Position numbers and translations under genes: made by a program. Shown in pieces: positions 10,731-63,838 of a stretch of DNA of 64,000 bases. The DNA is from Ptychodera flava. Taxonomy: Eukaryota > Hemichordata > Enteropneusta > Ptychoderidae. The number at the start of each line of letters is the position of its first letter. Position 1 is the first letter of the stretch. The notes below the pieces were generated by a model. The model was given only the letters and a program-made list of their open reading frames with translations. It made no database searches and was not told where the DNA came from. Location of the stretch: positions 4,348,501 to 4,412,500 of the forward strand of contig NC_091940.1 in NCBI RefSeq assembly GCF_041260155.1, given 5' to 3'.

Positions 10731-10806
10731 TTACGCGGTATTTCTCTTGCTGTCGCCTCTCACTACATGTATAGTTAGAGACGACTGCAAGATAAATACC
10801 GCGTAA
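10731..10806. repeat. Hairpin/fold-back in lectin intron 1
   Basis: Left arm TTACGCGGTATTT and right arm AAATACCGCGTAA bracket a roughly 76-bp near-palindrome, with partial inner pairing (CTTGC..GTCG against CGAC.GCAAG). It is probably a small fold-back element. Confidence 0.6.
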
Positions 10807-12921: not shown

Positions 12922-13733
12922 GTAAGTGAATCTACATTAGAGATAGACTTTGCATGAGTCAGGATTTGCTCAACTGATTAATTTATTGTGTCATGCATCA
13001 CAATGGGATCTGTCGACATATTGATGCTAATGATCATTTTAAAGGGGCAGTCCTCAACTCCTGGTTCTAACATTAGTTCTTGTTTACATTGGATATTTAC
13101 ATGGTGTTAGTCGTTTGTTTTTATCGTAATTTTTACCAAATTGGTCAATTTGCTTTCAGATATAGCAGATAAAAAAACTGCCTCTTTAAAACTTGATCTG
13201 TGAGTCTTAAAACTTTCCGACGAATACGTTCAACAAAAATTTAGGGAATAATCGATGACGGACGGATTAATGATTCACATACTGCAAAACATCTGACAAG
13301 AATGCCAGGTTAAAAGCATGAGAATCATCGGCGGTATAAAGTGACTGGTCTATGATGGAGGTAACAGAAATTAACATCTCAGTACCAGGTATTTGTTGTG
13401 CAATGATTATCTCAGGGGGCAATACATTTGATCGCAGAAGACACACAAGGTGTTGAAATATTGTATAATGGTAAGCTAATGAACCCTTGACTATATAGAT
13501 TTCATAGACTAGGCCGGTCACAAGCTGCCGAGGCCTCTTGGCATGGTCGCTGATTACTAAATCCCGACGAGAACACATTTAACATTTGGCCTGGTAACAC
13601 ATCTTACACGGTAACATTCTTGGCCTATTGGTGCAAATTTTCATGAATTTATATAGTTAATTTTTAAGTACTACCGGGATTCAACTGTCTGTAAATATAG
13701 TCGATCACAGTATGTTGGCACCTTTGGTCCTTG

Positions 13734-13814
13734 TGTCATATGTAAGGAAGAAGCTGGAAGTGACCACCACGTCAACGCTCGTGGTCACTGCCAGCTTCTC
13801 CCTTATATATGACA
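13734..13814. repeat. Fold-back element, about 80 bp
   Basis: The arms TGTCATATGTAAGG then AGCTGGAAGTGACCAC pair with GTGGTCACTGCCAGCT then CCTTATATATGACA around a 13-base loop. It lies in the last intron of the lectin gene. Confidence 0.7.
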
Positions 13815-14911
13815 CTTGCTTGCAATTAAGTTATCTGTGAAAGTACTTCAAAAATGTGTACTGGCGTGGAATCATAAGAACACACTGCGAAAGACATCTG
13901 TATTTCTAAATTGCATCAGGCTCCAAAGAACATGTCGAGTTTGGTCGTATTTGAATTTTTCCCATGGAAACAGTTTCTGTCAGATGTGAAAAACAATGAA
14001 TGAGAAATTCAAAATTGCAGTCCTTTGCATTTTTGCGGAGAGTAGGAGTCATCGTAATGATGTGTGTTTGACAGATTACAGTGTTGTCAAAATGTCTTGT
14101 TTTTTTGCATCATATTCAATCATCTGTGTCGATAGGACGTGACAGCTGTACCATCCTATCTTGGACTGAATGACATCATAAGGTAGAAGTCATTGTACAT
14201 GAAAAGTTATCCTTCGCAATGCTGTGGCTGTATTATGTAGAGACCAGGGACACACTTTCCCTAAGGATATAAACAATGATAGCATTTCGGCCACGTTGTA
14301 TATTTAATCATCCTACCTTTCGATTTGGTAGTTTCAAGTAGTGACGATTTACGATGAATTTTCATTTCTGTAAAAAGAAAGAAAAGTAGCAAGTCGGTGT
14401 CACTCCCACTACATTCGTTAAACATCAAGTATGCAGACTCGCTTTAATAGCATTGTCTTCAATCCACACGTAATGCAAGCCAAACCATACATTAGTCTAC
14501 GAATTTTGTTTATTCAATAGTTCAATGCAGAGCCGATGGCACTGTTTGGTAGACGCTAATTGTAAAAGAAGTGAGTTACCATGAGTATCCAGACTTAATA
14601 ATCAGCGACTGGTCCTCTTACAATCTGTCACGTTATACTTTAAAACGTTTCTCTTCCACATTTAGCTCACCCATTCTATGACATTAAATTGCCAAAAGTT
14701 GTTGATCCAAGGCTTATTCGAATTCTCAAAATCCTATAATCCTTGCTGTTCTGCAGTATTTTAAGTTGATCTGATTGGTCGAGACGCGAAAAGAACTGTG
14801 GTATATATTCGCGATATACCACGAGTGGCACATGAGTGAGCTCACGGCAAGAGCCAAAATCCTTTTTTTGATGTTCTATGCCAGAATTTCAATATACTGT
14901 TATGATATAAT

Positions 14912-30000: not shown

Positions 30001-30149
30001 AGGGGTTATTACACGAAGTTAGGGCGATACCGCGTCGTATTCTCGTGATGTGTCCGTATTTTGACTCGTTGCTGCGCAACTCGTCAAAATACGGACACAT
30101 CACTCAATACGACGCGGTATCGCCCAAACTTCGTGTAGGATAACCCCTA
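30001..30149. repeat. Long fold-back, about 150 bp
   Basis: Arms AGGGGTTATTACACGAAGTT / AACTTCGTGTAGGATAACCCCT and GGGCGATACCGCGTCGTAT / ATACGACGCGGTATCGCCC, with TGTCCGTATTTTGACTCGTT and its inverse, pair over about 70 bp. The centre is GTTGCTGCGCAAC. It is probably a non-autonomous fold-back transposon. Confidence 0.8.
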
Positions 30150-37150: not shown

Positions 37151-37804
37151 GTGCTCAATATCTCAAAAACGGCTCATCAGATCAGAATCAAATCTGGTAC
37201 ATAGATTCAGTTTGCAAATGGCAAGAACTGATTAGTTTTTAGTGGATGTGGCTTGCTTACTTTTTGCTCATTTGCATAATTAATGATTTTAGAAAAACGG
37301 GATATACATTGAGAACGACTGCACACAATTTGATGAGATTTGCTACAAATGTTGATCACATCAAGATAAATCAGCTGTGAAAGTTATTAAGGGGTGACGT
37401 GAAAGATAATTACTAATTTGCATATTTAATGAAATTTCCTAATTAGGGGTATATATCTGAATTTACTTGATCAAAATTGAGGAAACTTGGTATGCATATT
37501 GAAGACACTATGATTTAACATTATTGAAAGTCATTAAGCATTTTTACTTCATCCAAATCGTAATTTGCATATTTAACGGCCTTTCGAAATTAAGGATATA
37601 TATTTGAATTTACATAACCAAAATTGATGAAACTTGCTATGTACATTAAAGATACTATGATAGAACATTATTAAATGTCATTAAGCATTTTTACTTCAGC
37701 CAATTCCTAATTTGCATATTTAATGAACTTTCCTAATAGGGGTATTTATCTGAATTGACGAGACCAAAGTTGACGAAACTGGCTATGTACATTAAAGATA
37801 CTAT
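37000..37804. repeat. Tandem array, about 155-bp unit, with (GTCT)n head; left part
   Basis: A GTCT microsatellite (37064-37151) is followed by degenerate units containing GAAACTTGCTATGTACATTA, AAGATACTATGATAGAAC, GTCATTAAGCATTTTTACTT and CCTAATTTGCATATTTAATG. The array continues at 41640-42440 beyond the inserted element. Confidence 0.8.
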
Positions 37805-40498: not shown

Positions 40499-40532
40499 TT
40501 AGGCCTAATTCGGTCGCTATCATGTCGTCTAA

Positions 40533-40630
40533 TAGCCCTGCGTACGATGCTGTGTGTTCCGCTACAGCTAATCGCCTGGTGAGCGGGGCGATTAGCTGTA
40601 GCGGAACACACAGCATCGTACGCAGGGCTA
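40533..40630. mobile_element. Hairpin element A1 (98 bp, perfect 44-bp stem)
   Basis: The element begins TAGCCCTGCGTACGATGCTG, ends in the exact inverse, and has a 10-base loop. It is flanked by an exact 9-bp duplication, GTCGTCTAA (40524-40532 and 40631-40639), so it inserted as a unit. It has no coding capacity. Confidence 0.85.
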
Positions 40631-40742
40631 GTCGTCTAATCAAGAGCATGCATGCGTGGCTCGCCATGGCTTATTTTAAAATTAACAACTCGCTTGTTAA
40701 TTTCCACACTATTACAGCCAAAACACAACTCAAACACTAAAC

Positions 40743-40962
40743 TAGCTCTGCATGGCAGGGCTTAGCCCTGCGTACGATGCTGTGTGTTCCGCTACAGCTA
40801 ATCGCCTGTTCCGCTACAGCTAATCGCCTGGTGAGCGTGGCGATTAGCTGTAGCGGAACACACAGCATCGTACGCAGGGCTGTGTGTTACCGGCGTTATA
40901 CGGCCTCCCACCACATGTAGTGGGAGGCCGTAAAACACACAGCCCAGTGCAATGCAGAGTTA
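40743..40962. mobile_element. Hairpin element B (first copy) with nested element A2
   Basis: The ends are TAGCTCTGCAT and the inverse ATGCAGAGTTA, flanked by an exact 9-bp duplication ACACTAAAC (40734-40742 and 40963-40971). The core hairpin GTGTGTTACCGGCGTTATAC then GGCCTCCCAC pairs with GTGGGAGGCC then GTAAAACACAC. A second A-type hairpin (A2) interrupts the left arm. Confidence 0.85.
40763..40880. mobile_element. Hairpin element A2 inside B
   Basis: It is nearly identical in sequence to A1, with one arm internally duplicated (TGTTCCGCTACAGCTAATCG repeated). The expected final A and 9-bp duplication are missing: its end GCAGGGC runs straight into the host TGTGTGTTACC. This is explained by collapse between its own GCAGGGCT and the identical host GCAGGGCT. 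Confidence 0.75.
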
Positions 40963-40969
40963 ACACTAA

Positions 40970-41326
40970 ACACACCAAGCACATACAAGGCGAGATGGCT
41001 GATGTGTGAAGCCACTTTCCCTTTATTACACCGTGACCACTATGTTCAACATCATGTATTTCACGTTGAGCGGCTTGCACCAGCTGGACAATACGCTCAC
41101 TACACATACCAATGCCACTTAACTGTGACAAAAGTCTAACAAGACTCTCACACCTACGTGACACATCTCCCCGTCTGTCAGGCTGGTCAAGGTCAAGTAG
41201 CAGCCTAGACAAACTACCACTGACGTGGTCACTAACGAACCCGGTGTCGTCCAAAATTAACTGCGAGGTCACCATATGTTTGGGACTCCCTAACAAAGTG
41301 ATAAGTAGTTTCATGTAAAATGACAC
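40970..41326 (-). CDS. Unidentified open frame in the 3.8-kb element
   Basis: The frame reads KLLITLLGSPKHMVTSQLIL, then SRLLLDLDQPDRRGDVSRRC and ESLVRLLSQLSGIGMCSERI. It is hydrophilic, helix-prone and protein-like, unlike the repeat frames nearby. The formal frame extends to 40844, but that end is hairpin B. It may be an exon fragment captured by the transposon. I recognise no family. Confidence 0.3.
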
Positions 41327-41639
41327 CGACGATTTTTAAAGTCGTATTTGACTATATGTATGCTAATTTTGGCTTGTGTTCGCTGGCTAGTGGTCTAGGG
41401 GGACCTATGACTTCGATAGTTGAAAATGGGGATACGAATCCAAAATGTTGAGTTCTAGTTCCATAGTTGAAAATGTGGAGTTCGAAAGTTGAATGTGTGG
41501 AGTTCGAAAGTTGAAAATTGGGAGTTCGAAAGTTGAAAATGTCGAGTTGTATAGTTGAAAATGGGGAGTTTGAATGTTGAATGTCGAGTTGTATAGTTGA
41601 AAATGGGGAGTTAGAATATTGGCCTTGATTACGCGCCAT

Positions 41640-42704: not shown

Positions 42705-42730
42705 CAGCTTTATGTAGCTACATACATTAC

Positions 42731-44020
42731 CTGCATCGGCTTACTCCCTGCGCAGATTCTCGTAAAATCAACGATGTCTGAGAAGAATATTGTAACATCA
42801 TCAAAAGCCTCGGCCGGCACTCTGCCAGTGGTTTTCAATTGTTCAGCAACAGATACTGGTAACATCCGATACAACAACGTGTTCGTTTTTTCTTTTTCCT
42901 TTTCCAGCTCTTCCGTTTTACACATCAAGTCCACCTCGTAACGGTGAATCTTCAATGTTTGTACGCTGACTGCACGCACTATGATAACGCACAGTAGTAG
43001 AAATACAACAAGCAGACATGAAGAAAGGACAACATACCTATCGAGTCGCGCACCTTCACTTTCCAATATCACGAGAATGTCATCAGCTACTTGCAACTGA
43101 ATGGTGAGTAAAATGTCTATGTAGTCAGTCATGTTTAAAAACCACCATGTTCCCATTTCAACTGAAGGCTCTTCCGTTATATTGTTGTATCTGATTCTAT
43201 ATCGCATATCATCAAGTACTTCAAACAACTTACATCTGTCCCTTAACATCTTGTTGTACAAAGTATCAATGGTGGACGAATAGGCAGTTGCTCTCTCCAG
43301 AAATTCTTGGGCCAGTATGCTTTGCCTTAGAAACCAAACAAAGTCTCTGTACTCAGAGAATCCCCCAGATGCGAAATAGACACCTCCAAGTGCTCTCTCC
43401 ACACCCGCGTGTTCCTTGGCAAGGATAATCATTTCATAGCTGACTAGCGAACGCCAGAGTTGGCCTTCCTCGTAGCTACCGAAATCTCTATTAAGCCAAT
43501 GTATAATGTGATCTATGAAGGCGGTGTAAAAGTAGATCTCTTCGCGAGGATGTGTCTTGTTCGGATCAACACTATCTCGATAGACATTGAGACGATCTCG
43601 AAAAGCTTCTTTTGAAATGAAGGCTTCTGTGTGTCCGTCACTGAATGTGACCAACATTTCGTTCCAGTTCGTGATTGAATTTATGGCGCTGTCGGTTTTC
43701 TCATAATGTTCTTGCAGTGATAACAGTACTTCATCAGCGCCTTTAGAACTGATGTATAGTGCCGTCGTGCCTCGTTCAATCTGCAGTCGATGGACTAGCT
43801 CACCTGCATCGACAATACTCTCATGGATACGTTTGGTCAACGATGACTGATCTTTCTCGCTATTCATTCCCGTTATCAGATTTGCCAAAGTGTAGGTCAC
43901 AAGCGCCGCGACGGGTATTGTTGTCAGGCAGATCATAGAGAAGAGCTTGCGTTTTGTAACTGCTCCAAAGTCAGACGAGTGTCCTGGAAGTGATGCACGA
44001 GAATCCAATGGCTCCACCAT
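42731..44020 (-). CDS. NIT-domain transmembrane guanylate cyclase, exon 1; full gene description
   Basis: This 430-codon exon starts a 632-residue receptor guanylate cyclase (GTP to cGMP) with exons 44020-42731, 23162-23057, 21003-20866, 20414-20316, 19992-19901 and 19183-19010. From the N-terminus there is a short cytosolic segment, TM1 at 26-48, an extracellular NIT sensor at about 64-319 (signature LVHRLQIERGTTALYISS), TM2 at 329-351, a coiled coil TEELEKEKEKTNTLLYRMLP at about 370-389, and the first cyclase strand with metal Asp415 in FFSDIVDFT. Three sequons (N154, N280, N296) fit an extracellular NIT. NIT-GCs are known in marine invertebrates, and annelid members act in nitric-oxide signalling; the ligand here is inferred. 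The start is the ATG at 44020. The upstream GTG at 44038 is in frame but unlikely, and an in-frame stop lies at 44081-44083. The donor is CAG|GTAATG, phase 0. No kinase-like domain is present. Confidence 0.95.
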
Positions 44021-44160
44021 CGTTGATGGTGCTTCCACGCGAACGACACTGCGTTGAAAGTATAAAGCATTTGTCTTCGATCAAGGCCCCTTGCAAGTTT
44101 CCGTTTGTTAGTGTTATTCCCGACAGTCACCCGGTTAACACGTGATCACCGGACGACTTG
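44021..44160 (-). promoter_or_regulatory. 5' leader of the guanylate cyclase: possible acceptor or upstream ATG
   Basis: Just upstream of the start, ATACTTTCAACGCAG at 44049-44063 looks like a splice acceptor, so exon 1 may begin at 44048 with a non-coding exon further upstream. If unspliced, an out-of-frame ATG near 44072 would open an overlapping upstream ORF and dampen translation. Sequence alone cannot decide. Confidence 0.35.
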
Positions 44161-46637: not shown

Positions 46638-47743
46638 AAATTATATGGTGTACATCCTCTCACTATGTCCGATACAACAGTCTTACAATTGTATGAACGC
46701 AAACACTAGTAAAACATGTATACGCACAAACTATAGACTTGAGTAATATGATATTCATGGATACTCGTCTTTTGTACCATCATTGCTTTACTCCCCTCAT
46801 ACTCCCTCCATGCCTTGCCTTCATGAACACTCTATATTCATAATTTATTCGTGAAAACGTCTATTTTTAGCATAGTTTCAAACACACAGAGCTTATATTG
46901 TTGATTCAATTTACAGGTGAACGCTGTTTCTTGCAAACACGGTAGGCCATCAATCTTAGTCGTGTGCATCATCAGTTCGCTTGGAATCTTTGCTGAATTT
47001 TTTATCTCTTGTACTCTCAATTTCTGCTATCATACTGAACACAAGATGGAGTTCTACTGAGAATGACCGTGCCACGTCAGCGTCATAATAATTTAATTGA
47101 AGCTTAGGTCCCCTGTCCCCCATCGTTCTTGCAATTTTGCACTAGTGTCTTGGAGATGGTAAAGAGTTTACTATGAATGATACTGATTATCGGACCTGTT
47201 TTGATGTCATATTGCAGTGTAAACCCTGTTACGCTGAGAGGTCAAATGGGGAAAATGAGTTTGTGTCAGAAACTGTGTTCAGATTATAGAAGGCGTGATT
47301 TACAATCAGGTATGGTAGCAGAGAATATAATATGTTGGTCAGATTAGAATGTGTTCTTAAAACGTATTATATTACCATGCCCTGCCCGTCGCATTTTGAT
47401 TGGTCGAGCAGAACCATGTGACTGACCACAAATACACAGTAATGGTTTGTTTACATGCCCGTGAATATGAATAATAAGATTAACAACTCAAAGTATCGTA
47501 ATTTTACAGCTCAAACACAAATCATAATCAATCACAAAATAAAATGGAGCACTTGTAGGTCAAGTTGAGATATTTTTTTCTGAAAACATCTCCGGATTTG
47601 CCAATTTTTTTCAGCGCGCGTGACAGTTCGTCGCGTAATGCTCAGTTTCTTGGGCCCAGTTGTCGTTCGCTCCTGAAATTTTCGGAAATTTTGACGGTTT
47701 TCTTGGGTTCGCTGATAATATAATGGAAATAACAGACTCCGCT

Positions 47744-47868
47744 CTGACCATTAACGTTTATTTGTGGGCGCGGGCTCGAGGAAAGCCAAATAAACGGCTC
47801 GGCAAGCCTCGCCCGTTAATTTTTGGCTTTCCTCTCGCCCTTGCCCACAAATAAACGTTAATGGTCAG
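47744..47868. repeat. Fold-back element, 125 bp
   Basis: Arms CTGACCATTAACGTTTATTT then GTGGGCGCGGGC pair with their inverse ending ATAAACGTTAATGGTCAG. An inner AACGG...CCGTT hairpin continues the palindrome. Weaker symmetry (AATAAC-type) extends outward on both sides. Confidence 0.75.
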
Positions 47869-48565
47869 CGCGCGCCCGTTATTCTATGGTATTCTATGCC
47901 GCCAAGTATTTATTTTCATCGCATACGACACGATTGGATTTGTTAATTTTCATCACTCCTGTGTGATCATACATCCGGGTAATTCGGCTGATGGCTCCTT
48001 CCAATATTCTAACTTGAGTGGCTGAAAATAACCATCGTTCTTCAGTAGCTGATTTGGAGAATCACTACATGCATCATATAAAGGCTTAACAGCACACGTT
48101 TGGTAAGTTTTGTCCCTCTGACACGTTTGTGACGTAAGATATGTTTGTAGTTCTAGGCAATTCTAGTTCTAATTCCAGAAATTCTAAACCTAATTCTAGG
48201 AAACCTTCAGCGGCCACCAGTGGCTCTGAAGACGAAATATTCACCTCTTCCCATCAATATCTGACCAAAAAAACAGTGTGATGCCGGGTTTGAAATAAGA
48301 CCATCTACGTATATGCACATACTGGATGTCATCCAATCAATGTTCAAAGATTGTAACAGATAGATTTGTACTGCTAAAATATGATACAAAATGATATACA
48401 AAACAAATAATACAATTAATGTTCAACTAGTAAAAGCTATAAGGACAAAATTTCTTATGACTTTTGTCGCTGAACTGGAAAGCACATGTACCAGTAAACA
48501 ATTTTAATATCGACATTTCAGCTTCGTGTTTTTTGAATAGAATAAGATTTTAAATCCTCGCTTAC

Positions 48566-58199: not shown

Positions 58200-59640
58200 C
58201 AACATAAATCATGTGGCCATGATTTCTTTACTGCACGCCTTCTACGTGACGCAGCCCCCTCATTAGCCACCCACTTGCATACATTATCAATTTATCTTTT
58301 GAAATGGGCGTTTTCCCAGATCAGCTGAAAATTGCCAAAGTTACACCCATTTACAAGAAAGGTTCTCCCTACAGTCCAAATAACTACCGGCCTATTTCTG
58401 TTCTTTCTTTATTCAGTAAAATAACTGAGAAAGCCGTCAATAGGCAACTGTTGTCATTTCTTGAGCGTTTCAATATCCTACATAAGGACCAATATGGGTT
58501 TAGAAAATCTTTCAGTACTAAACTTTCACTTATTGATTTAGTCGGTGATCTTTTTGCAGAATTTGAGAAAGGTAACTTTGTTCTTGGTATTTTTCTCGAT
58601 CTTACCAAAGCGTTCGATACCATAAACCACAAGATACTTCTTTCAAAACTTTCACACATTGGTATTCGGGGTCCTCCTTTAAACTGGTTCCATAGTTATT
58701 TGTCCAACAGACATCAATACGTTTCTGCAGCAGGATGCAACTCTTCTATTCTTCCTGTCAACTGTGGAGTCCCACAGGGATCTATCCTTGGCCCCATTTT
58801 GTTTCTTATCTATATTAATGACTTCCCGAACTGTTCTTCCTTCTTCAACTTTAAACTCTTTGCTGACGATTCAAATCTTTTCCACTCTTATAATAAACAG
58901 AGCTTTGATGTAAATCAGGCAAACGCAAACCTCATGGATGTTGAAAATTGGTGCAATGCAAACAAACTGACAATTAGCTACTCCAAAACCAACTACATGT
59001 TTCTTTCATCTCGTTATAATCCATTTAATAATACTGGTCAGTTAGGTATTAATAATGTTTTACTCGAAGAAGTCGCCAATACCAGTTATCTGGGAGTTGA
59101 CATTGATAAAAATATTACATGGAAACAACAGATTAAGAAGGTTCTTGATAAAATTGTTCCCAAGATTGGTATTATTTCCAAACTGAGGCATTATCTCCCC
59201 AAATCCACTCTGTTACTTCTTTACAATGCTCTTATTCTCCCACATATTTCATACTGTTTGGAAATAGGGGCAGTACTTACCGCTCATCTCTTGATTCAGT
59301 TTATAAGGCACAAAAGAAACTTGTTCGCATCATTTGTTTTAAGGATTCTTTTACTCATAGTAGGCCACTTTTTCAATCTCTCGGTATTCTTGACATTTAC
59401 AGCCAGTTTAAATACCAACTCTGTACATTTATTCATGATCTTTTTCACAACAGATTACCCAGACGTTTTGATGAGTATTTTTCTTTCCCACAACACCATT
59501 ACCAAACAAGATTAATTACAAAAAGGGATGTTCTCATCCCTAGAAGGAATTACACTTTGGGCAAATTTTCCTTTGACTATCACGGTGGCAAAATATGGAA
59601 TGAGATACCACATGATATTCGTAACATACCTAACTAGAAA
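58200..59640 (+). pseudogene. LINE reverse transcriptase, frameshifted (CR1/Jockey-like)
   Basis: The main frame (58304-59515) reads PIYKKGSPYSPNNYRPISVL, then GIFLDLTKAFDTINH (motif A Asp), GVPQGSILGPILFLIYIND (motif B) and KLFADDSN (motif C Asp-Asp), so the catalytic residues are intact. Breaks lie near 58285 and near 59265, after which another frame gives YKAQKKLVRIICFKDSF, FHNRLPRRFDEYF and PRRNYTLGKFSFDYHGG. At least three frameshifts in a well-preserved sequence suggest a fairly young but dead copy. Confidence 0.9.
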
Positions 59641-62941: not shown

Positions 62942-63070
<129 letters not shown>

Positions 63071-63171
63071 TAAGGATATGGATATTATGCTGTGTTACCA
63101 ACAGAAATACGTTCTGTGGATTTGCGCGCGATGTTTTCAAGATTACCCATTCATTATGCCACGTCGATGGC

Positions 63172-63298
63172 TAGCTGCAGTACAGCAGTAGCTCGAGGTT
63201 TTGCCTGAGTATTTGGATCGGACGGGAAATCTGGAAATCTGGTCTTGCCGTCGGACCAAAATACCCAGGCAAAACCTCGAGCTACTGTACTGCAGCTA
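63172..63298. mobile_element. Hairpin element C1 (127 bp)
   Basis: The ends are TAGCTGCAGTAC and the inverse GTACTGCAGCTA, and the arms include AGCTCGAGGTTTTGCCTG and its inverse. It is flanked by exact 9-bp GTCGATGGC (63163-63171 and 63299-63307). The inner part is also mostly self-complementary. Confidence 0.85.
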
Positions 63299-63307
63299 GT
63301 CGATGGC

Positions 63308-63539
63308 TAGCTCTGCGTTGCAGGGCTGTGTGTTACCAGCGTTATACGGCCTGTGGTGGGCGGCCGTAACGCCGGTAACACACAGCCTAGCTGCAGTACT
63401 ACAGTAGCTCGAGGTTTTGCCTGGGTATTTGGGTCGGACGGCAAAACCAGATTTCCAGATTTCCCGTCCGATCCAAATACTCAGGCAAAACCTCGAGCTA
63501 CTGTACTGCAGCTACACACAGCCCTGCTACGCAGAGCTA
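63308..63539. mobile_element. Hairpin element B (second copy) containing C2
   Basis: The ends are TAGCTCTGCG and CGCAGAGCTA, flanked by GTCGATGGC on both sides (63299-63307 and 63540-63548), sharing one copy with C1. The core GCTGTGTGTTACCAGCGTTA then TACGGCC pairs with GGCCGTAACGCCGGTAACAC. It is homologous to the copy at 40743 but has a different loop. Confidence 0.85.
63388..63514. mobile_element. Hairpin element C2 (127 bp), inverted, nested in B
   Basis: It has the same length and sequence as C1 with a few differences, in inverted orientation. It is flanked by an exact 9-bp duplication CACACAGCC (63379-63387 and 63515-63523) of the stem of element B. Confidence 0.88.
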
Positions 63540-63805
63540 GTCGATGGCTTGTTCAAAGTGCAAAATTATAATAAATAACCTGAACATGAATATGGAAGTT
63601 TTTCAATAGATATGACAAGTTTAAAGCCCAGCTTGACCCTCGTTAATATGAGAAACAAGGTACAAGCTGGTACCGTGTGGCGACCGTAAATATCAGGTGT
63701 AGTGCTTGCTGCAGATCCGTAGGGCTACGGATCCGCGGCACGCTTGTGTAGCGCAAACACGGCATTGACCGTGTCAAGGTATAAACGTGACGATTTGGAT
63801 ATTAA

Positions 63806-63838
63806 AAACATAGACAGTCGTTTCTCGACTGTCTATGG
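63806..63838. repeat. Small perfect hairpin
   Basis: CATAGACAGTCG / CGACTGTCTATG with a 5-base loop, 12-bp stem, in DPM1 intron 1. No terminator-like or RNA-gene context is visible. Confidence 0.6.

Follow-up and report, generated by a model that had tools for sequence, protein, structure and literature searches.

How do two different transposable elements come to share one and the same 9-bp target site, and why does a third lie within the stem of one of them? The question is raised by a cluster of hairpin elements in the acorn worm Ptychodera flava, which we analysed together with the surrounding stretch of DNA, 64 kb in all (hereafter the window). The window contains six such elements, A1, A2, B1, B2, C1 and C2, arranged in two clusters (40524-40971 and 63163-63548; Table 1). 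They are 96-127 bp long when the inserts in B1 and B2 are excluded, non-coding and almost fully palindromic, and five of the six, all except A2, are bounded by exact 9-bp target duplications. A preliminary description of this DNA had given the order of the second cluster as GTCGATGGC-C1-GTCGATGGC-B2-GTCGATGGC, and this order proved correct to the base. Because GTCGATGGC stands on both sides of C1 and on both sides of B2, one 9-bp site was indeed used by two different elements. This 9-mer occurs exactly three times in the window, at 63163, 63299 and 63540, where 0.21 occurrences are expected. C2 was likewise confirmed to lie within the right arm of B2 with an exact copy of CACACAGCC on either side, coordinates and scan being in agreement.

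Table 1. Elements, target duplications and the neighbouring exon, in window coordinates
Feature	Coordinates	Strand	Basis
A1 (40533-40630), 98 bp, 44-bp perfect stem, with GTCGTCTAA duplications	40524..40639		scan; DNA fold
B1 (40743-40962), 101 bp without insert, with ACACTAAAC duplications	40734..40971		scan
A2, within the B1 left arm; one arm holds a 22-bp tandem duplication; final base lacking, without target duplication	40763..40881		comparison with A1
Putative first coding exon of DPM1 (dolichol-phosphate mannosyltransferase)	62963..63069	+	translation; donor GTAAGG at 63070
Target duplication, copy 1, GTCGATGGC	63163..63171		exact match
C1, 127-bp hairpin MITE, ends TAGCTGCAGTAC / GTACTGCAGCTA	63172..63298		scan; DNA fold -49.3 kcal/mol, z -13.8
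Target duplication, copy 2, GTCGATGGC, common to C1 and B2	63299..63307		exact match
B2, 96 bp without insert (63308-63387 + 63524-63539), split by C2 and the second CACACAGCC	63308..63539		scan; similarity to B1
C2 duplication, left copy, CACACAGCC, belonging to right arm of B2	63379..63387		scan
C2, 127 bp, inverted relative to C1	63388..63514		scan; DNA fold -58.7 kcal/mol, z -17.0
C2 duplication, right copy, CACACAGCC	63515..63523		scan
Target duplication, copy 3, GTCGATGGC	63540..63548		exact match

The whole window was scanned for exact 9-bp direct repeats bounding 14-nt inverted ends with at least 11 matches, 50-1200 bp apart. This blind scan returned five matches, namely A1, B1, B2, C1 and C2, and nothing elsewhere; these are exactly the five duplications that had been claimed over both clusters. 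The same scan gave three matches in total on 100 dinucleotide shuffles (0.03 per window), and a complement-only control gave none at 9 bp (two at 5 bp, none at 6-11 bp). When the duplication length was set to 5, 6, 7, 8, 10 or 11 bp, 2, 6, 2, 1, 0 and 1 matches were found in the window, respectively. The lone 11-bp match is B2 read one base inward, and the lone 8-bp match, at 37434, lies outside both clusters; at 5-7 bp the matches were recorded as counts. Furthermore, blastn of five of the six elements, A1, B1, B2, C1 and C2, against the window revealed nothing convincing outside the clusters, where the best match had an E-value of 0.20 and the longest covered 29 bases. Therefore, the six recognised copies are confined to stretches of 448 and 386 bp.

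The elements are short and non-coding, they have inverted ends and a fixed 9-bp duplication (five of six), and A, B and C are each present in two copies. These are the features of MITEs, and we regard A, B and C as non-autonomous hairpin MITEs that form one family or two related ones. Ten of the 12 element ends begin with TAGC; the right end of B1 reads TAAC and that of A2, whose final base is missing, reads AGCC. A and B have in common an outer TAGCYCTGC, apart from the TAAC of B1, and an inner GCTGTGTGTT. What C has in common with A and B is confined to a terminal TAGC(T), so a single transposase for all three is putative. The outer 20 bp of the ends of B (63308-63327 and 40743-40762) and of C (63388-63409) look by eye like imperfect palindromes, e.g., AGCTCTGC/GCAGGGCT, and are possibly paired transposase-binding sites.

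Copies of the same element are similar to each other to different degrees. A1 and A2 are identical at 96 of 97 aligned positions (23 gap columns), C1 and C2 at 121 of 124 (6 gap columns, that is, two 3-bp gaps), and B1 agrees with B2 at 81 of 89 (19 gap columns), the central difference between the two B copies being mainly about 10 bp that are absent from B2. Each C copy has its own 3-bp insertion, unlike that of the other, some 12 bp from the left end as written in the window. B2 is a near-complete palindrome, TAGCTCTGCG...CGCAGAGCTA. Folded as single-stranded DNA, the whole of cluster 2 is predicted to form one giant hairpin in which C1 pairs with C2 (-186 kcal/mol, z -34.8). Two more small hairpins, at 63704-63743 and 63809-63837, lie less than 300 bp from this cluster and have no clear target duplication.

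A2 is the one element that lacks a duplication. Its right junction falls in GCAGGGCT, an 8-bp repeat that is present both at the A end and inside B, and a deletion between these two repeats would remove the A2 duplication. The missing duplication can be explained by a single 10-bp deletion between the GCAGGGCT repeats, in which case the target would have been GGCAGGGCT. Two losses of 5 bp can also account for it; the target would then have been GGCTGTGTG, the same segment of B that was used by C2. At 41409-41609 there is an array of AGTTCGAAAGTTGAAAATG-like tandem repeats of about 22 bp.

The nesting gives an order of insertion. C2 interrupts B2 and is therefore younger than B2. C1 closely resembles C2, which suggests that C1 probably came late as well, taking as its target the left copy of the duplication that flanks B2. 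The inferred order also allows the opposite, namely that C1 would have come first and B2 would then have inserted on C1's right duplication, with the roles swapped. Arm divergence proved of no use for dating: within C1 and within C2 the two arms differ by 11-12%, as against 3 of 124 aligned positions between the two copies, which indicates that most of the arm mismatches were inherited. We also rejected a composite hop, in which C1, the shared target and B would have moved as one unit, because the target duplication made by such a hop would have to be, by coincidence, the same 9-mer as the internal one.

Is the clustering more than the chance outcome of many insertions? Three of the six insertions (C1, C2 and A2) lie in or exactly against another member of the group. 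In a simulation of uniform insertion of six elements, in which insertions were assumed to be independent, 1 run in 1,000,000 had at least three nested or abutting elements, and a site was re-used exactly at least once in 471 of 1,000,000; these values overstate the case, since the window was picked for its nested look. A genome rich in such elements would yield some nested clusters with shared sites anyway, and it was a reader who selected this window for its appearance. Against this, all six recognised copies lie in two separate clusters of a single 64-kb window, and the uniform null gives about 1e-6 for at least three nested elements. We therefore consider chance combined with selection of a striking window unlikely as the explanation; clustering in this window, itself picked for clustering, is real and goes beyond chance. 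Strong foldback DNA is hard to sequence, and the junctions might be suspected of having been created in the assembly or the library. The elements here carry substitutions and small gaps relative to each other, and an artefact is not expected to flank them with exact 9-bp duplications; we regard this explanation as very improbable. The published P. flava assembly, which may not be the one from which this window comes, was made with PacBio reads and Illumina polishing (PMC11175523).

The preliminary description had proposed a preference for existing hairpins or for family ends, possibly through recognition of cruciform DNA. Sequential insertion, re-use of a site, insertion into a stem and clustering all stand; recognition of hairpins or cruciforms as such is conjectural, and none of the eight other hairpins of the census described below bears such an insertion according to the scan, in what is a weak test. 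The idea is that any palindromic DNA, once extruded, is recognised by the transposase whatever its sequence. It agrees with two late insertions in the stem of B and one at the stem base, and with the very strong folding of the family elements as single-stranded DNA (A1, -61.6 kcal/mol, z -20). We took a census of hairpins, which was ungapped and understates some of them, and found 14, six being pieces of the family and eight others. None of these eight carries an insertion with a 9-bp target duplication by the scan, or a convincing match to A, B or C. When hits are distributed by hairpin length, three of three in family hairpins corresponds to P = 0.033, a weak test with few hairpins from one window. 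Three of the eight were folded, and one of them, at 47740-47872, is nearly as strong as the family elements (-55.2 kcal/mol), the two others being weaker (-27.6 and -30.8). In addition, palindrome scores centred on the target duplications of A1, B1, B2, C1 and C2 were 3, 0, 4, 3 and 3, against a background mean of 2.1 with 14% of positions reaching 4. These scores cover four distinct sites, B2 and C1 having the same 9 bp in two states, and a target palindrome of the P-element type gives no clear signal at them. Hence targeting of hairpins or cruciforms in general is quite unlikely, and the balance leans, on a weak test with P of about 0.03, to targeting of family ends or local hopping. Strong hairpins with no evident 9-bp duplication are found at 47740-47872, 10731-10806, 13733-13815 and 30045-30103, possibly representing other hairpin families; the flanks of the last are themselves inverted repeats.

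Local transposition may act with no special target, in which case short hops would pile up copies and some of these would land in each other. Within the window both A copies lie in cluster 1 and both C copies in cluster 2, close together and similar, as such hopping would predict. Even within a few hundred bases an exact hit would however have a chance on the order of 1 in 100, by estimate rather than computation, so exact re-use of the 9 bp needs more than proximity. Plain local transposition is unlikely as the whole explanation.

We favour an account in which B inserted first and later copies of A and C were drawn to transposase-bound ends of existing copies, with short-range hopping in addition and a Mutator-like transposase as the source; we rate it about evenly between right and wrong. 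It builds on the anatomy of the elements, their duplications, their clustering in the window and the arrival of C2 after B2, and its evidence comes from six elements, one of which (A2) has no duplication. A DDE-type transposase with a 9-bp stagger, encoded elsewhere and, judging by class, most likely Mutator-like, would insert B first. Later copies of A and C would then insert into B or exactly against it. C1 would take the left copy of the B2 duplication as its target, the strands being joined at the boundary between B2 and the target and 9 bp outside it, and C2 and A2 would land within the inverted arms of B, at most 25 bp from its ends. We infer, as the simplest cause of the clustering, that the incoming complex docks on the transposase-bound end of an existing copy and joins at the boundary of element and target. 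Short-range hopping would assist, bringing A together with A and C with C. C1, C2 and A2 each lie at most 25 bp from a B end, which is weak evidence as to the position inside B, since about half of a 96-101-bp element is within 25 bp of an end.

What kind of transposase might this be? A cut-and-paste enzyme with a 9-bp stagger probably mobilised A, B and C, and its class is most likely Mutator-like. A survey of MULEs gives target duplications of 8-11 bp (PMC6446971), and the exact 9 bp on five of the six elements fall in this range. The same survey reports limited evidence of MULEs in chordates, and the words hemichordate and Saccoglossus are absent from its main text (PMC6446971). This silence, together with the limited chordate record, leaves a MULE source in this animal without independent support, unlike Merlin. 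Merlin elements have 8-9-bp duplications and ends that begin with GG, and hundreds of matches are reported in P. flava (PMC8101967). They are similar in duplication length to the elements studied here (9 bp on five of six), but none of the 12 ends begins with GG, and membership in Merlin was thus rejected. P or hAT membership was also rejected: duplications are 7-8 bp for P and 8 bp for hobo according to PMC3276498, as against 9 bp here, and the single 8-bp match of the scan, at 37434, lies outside the family.

Nested and clustered MITEs are already known, and A, B and C are a further example. The Drosophila P element makes nested or double insertions, at the site of an existing copy or beside it, and shows local hopping, a behaviour similar to that seen here. 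Its duplication is 8 bp and not 9 (PMC3276498). Tm1, a Mutator/Foldback element of root-knot nematodes, likewise has 9-bp duplications, is rich in inverted repeats and has MITE-sized non-coding members, and nested elements are reported; it differs in its composite tandem-repeat ends and other terminal motifs, whereas A, B and C consist of hairpin and little else (PMC3169594 for Tm1). The M1-M2 units of pithoviruses are palindromic, MITE-like and found in tandem or clusters, and adjacent units share a duplication as here, but the shared duplication is 2 bp, which is easily obtained by chance, instead of 9 bp (PMC10664404, where the rice MITE multimers of Jiang and Wessler 2001 are cited). Nested insertions are said to be common among maize and rice MULEs (PMC3903597). 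A mosquito MULE has little or no target sequence preference (PMC5225508), and re-use of a 9-bp site is therefore not expected from such sequence preference. Plant LTR elements show a slight preference for palindromes, non-significant in the nested subset, and some nesting within the same family (PMC6911290). A study of tandem TE insertions (PMC12368964) uses neither 'TSD' nor 'target site duplication' in its main text.

The detail that distinguishes these elements from known nested MITEs is the exact shared 9-bp site. It is conceivable, though rather doubtful, that a hemichordate transposase prefers the ends of its own hairpin elements, joins exactly at the boundary of element and target, re-uses the 9 bp and so builds arrays of the form T-X-T-Y-T. 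If the preference holds genome-wide, such arrays would be a clean record of target choice by a transposase, as nesting orders the insertions and 9-bp duplications mark most of them. Self-directed insertion would also spare host genes some damage and open a path by which MITEs could become tandem arrays. Should the preference fail genome-wide, the locus is a nested MITE cluster of the usual kind within an intron. A literature search limited to titles and opening abstract lines of the top-ranked records found no description of such elements in Ptychodera. The C core, the B arm and the A/B end were sought as exact patterns among viral contigs (viral_contigs), and the A/B end also among bacterial and archaeal contigs (genome_contigs); there were 0 matches, which says little for this animal.

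Cluster 2 starts 93 bp downstream of the splice donor that closes the exon at 62963-63069, and had been placed in intron 1 of DPM1. This setting is plausible, with an ATG exon, a donor and a best PDB match to dolichol-phosphate mannose synthase (5mlz, the first of four weak matches), and at E = 0.1 the identification is tentative. The PDB search with the peptide of this exon gave no match below 0.001, and Pfam and NCBIfam gave sub-cut-off matches only. A search of the whole window against Rfam revealed no RNA family at gathering scores. Elsewhere in the window, a reverse transcriptase ORF (PF00078) is found at 58250-59512 on the plus strand, presumably as part of a non-LTR retrotransposon. On the minus strand, a 456-residue ORF at 42713-44080 contains NIT, HNOBA and guanylate cyclase domains and is 100% identical to a P. 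flava protein over 95% of the ORF.
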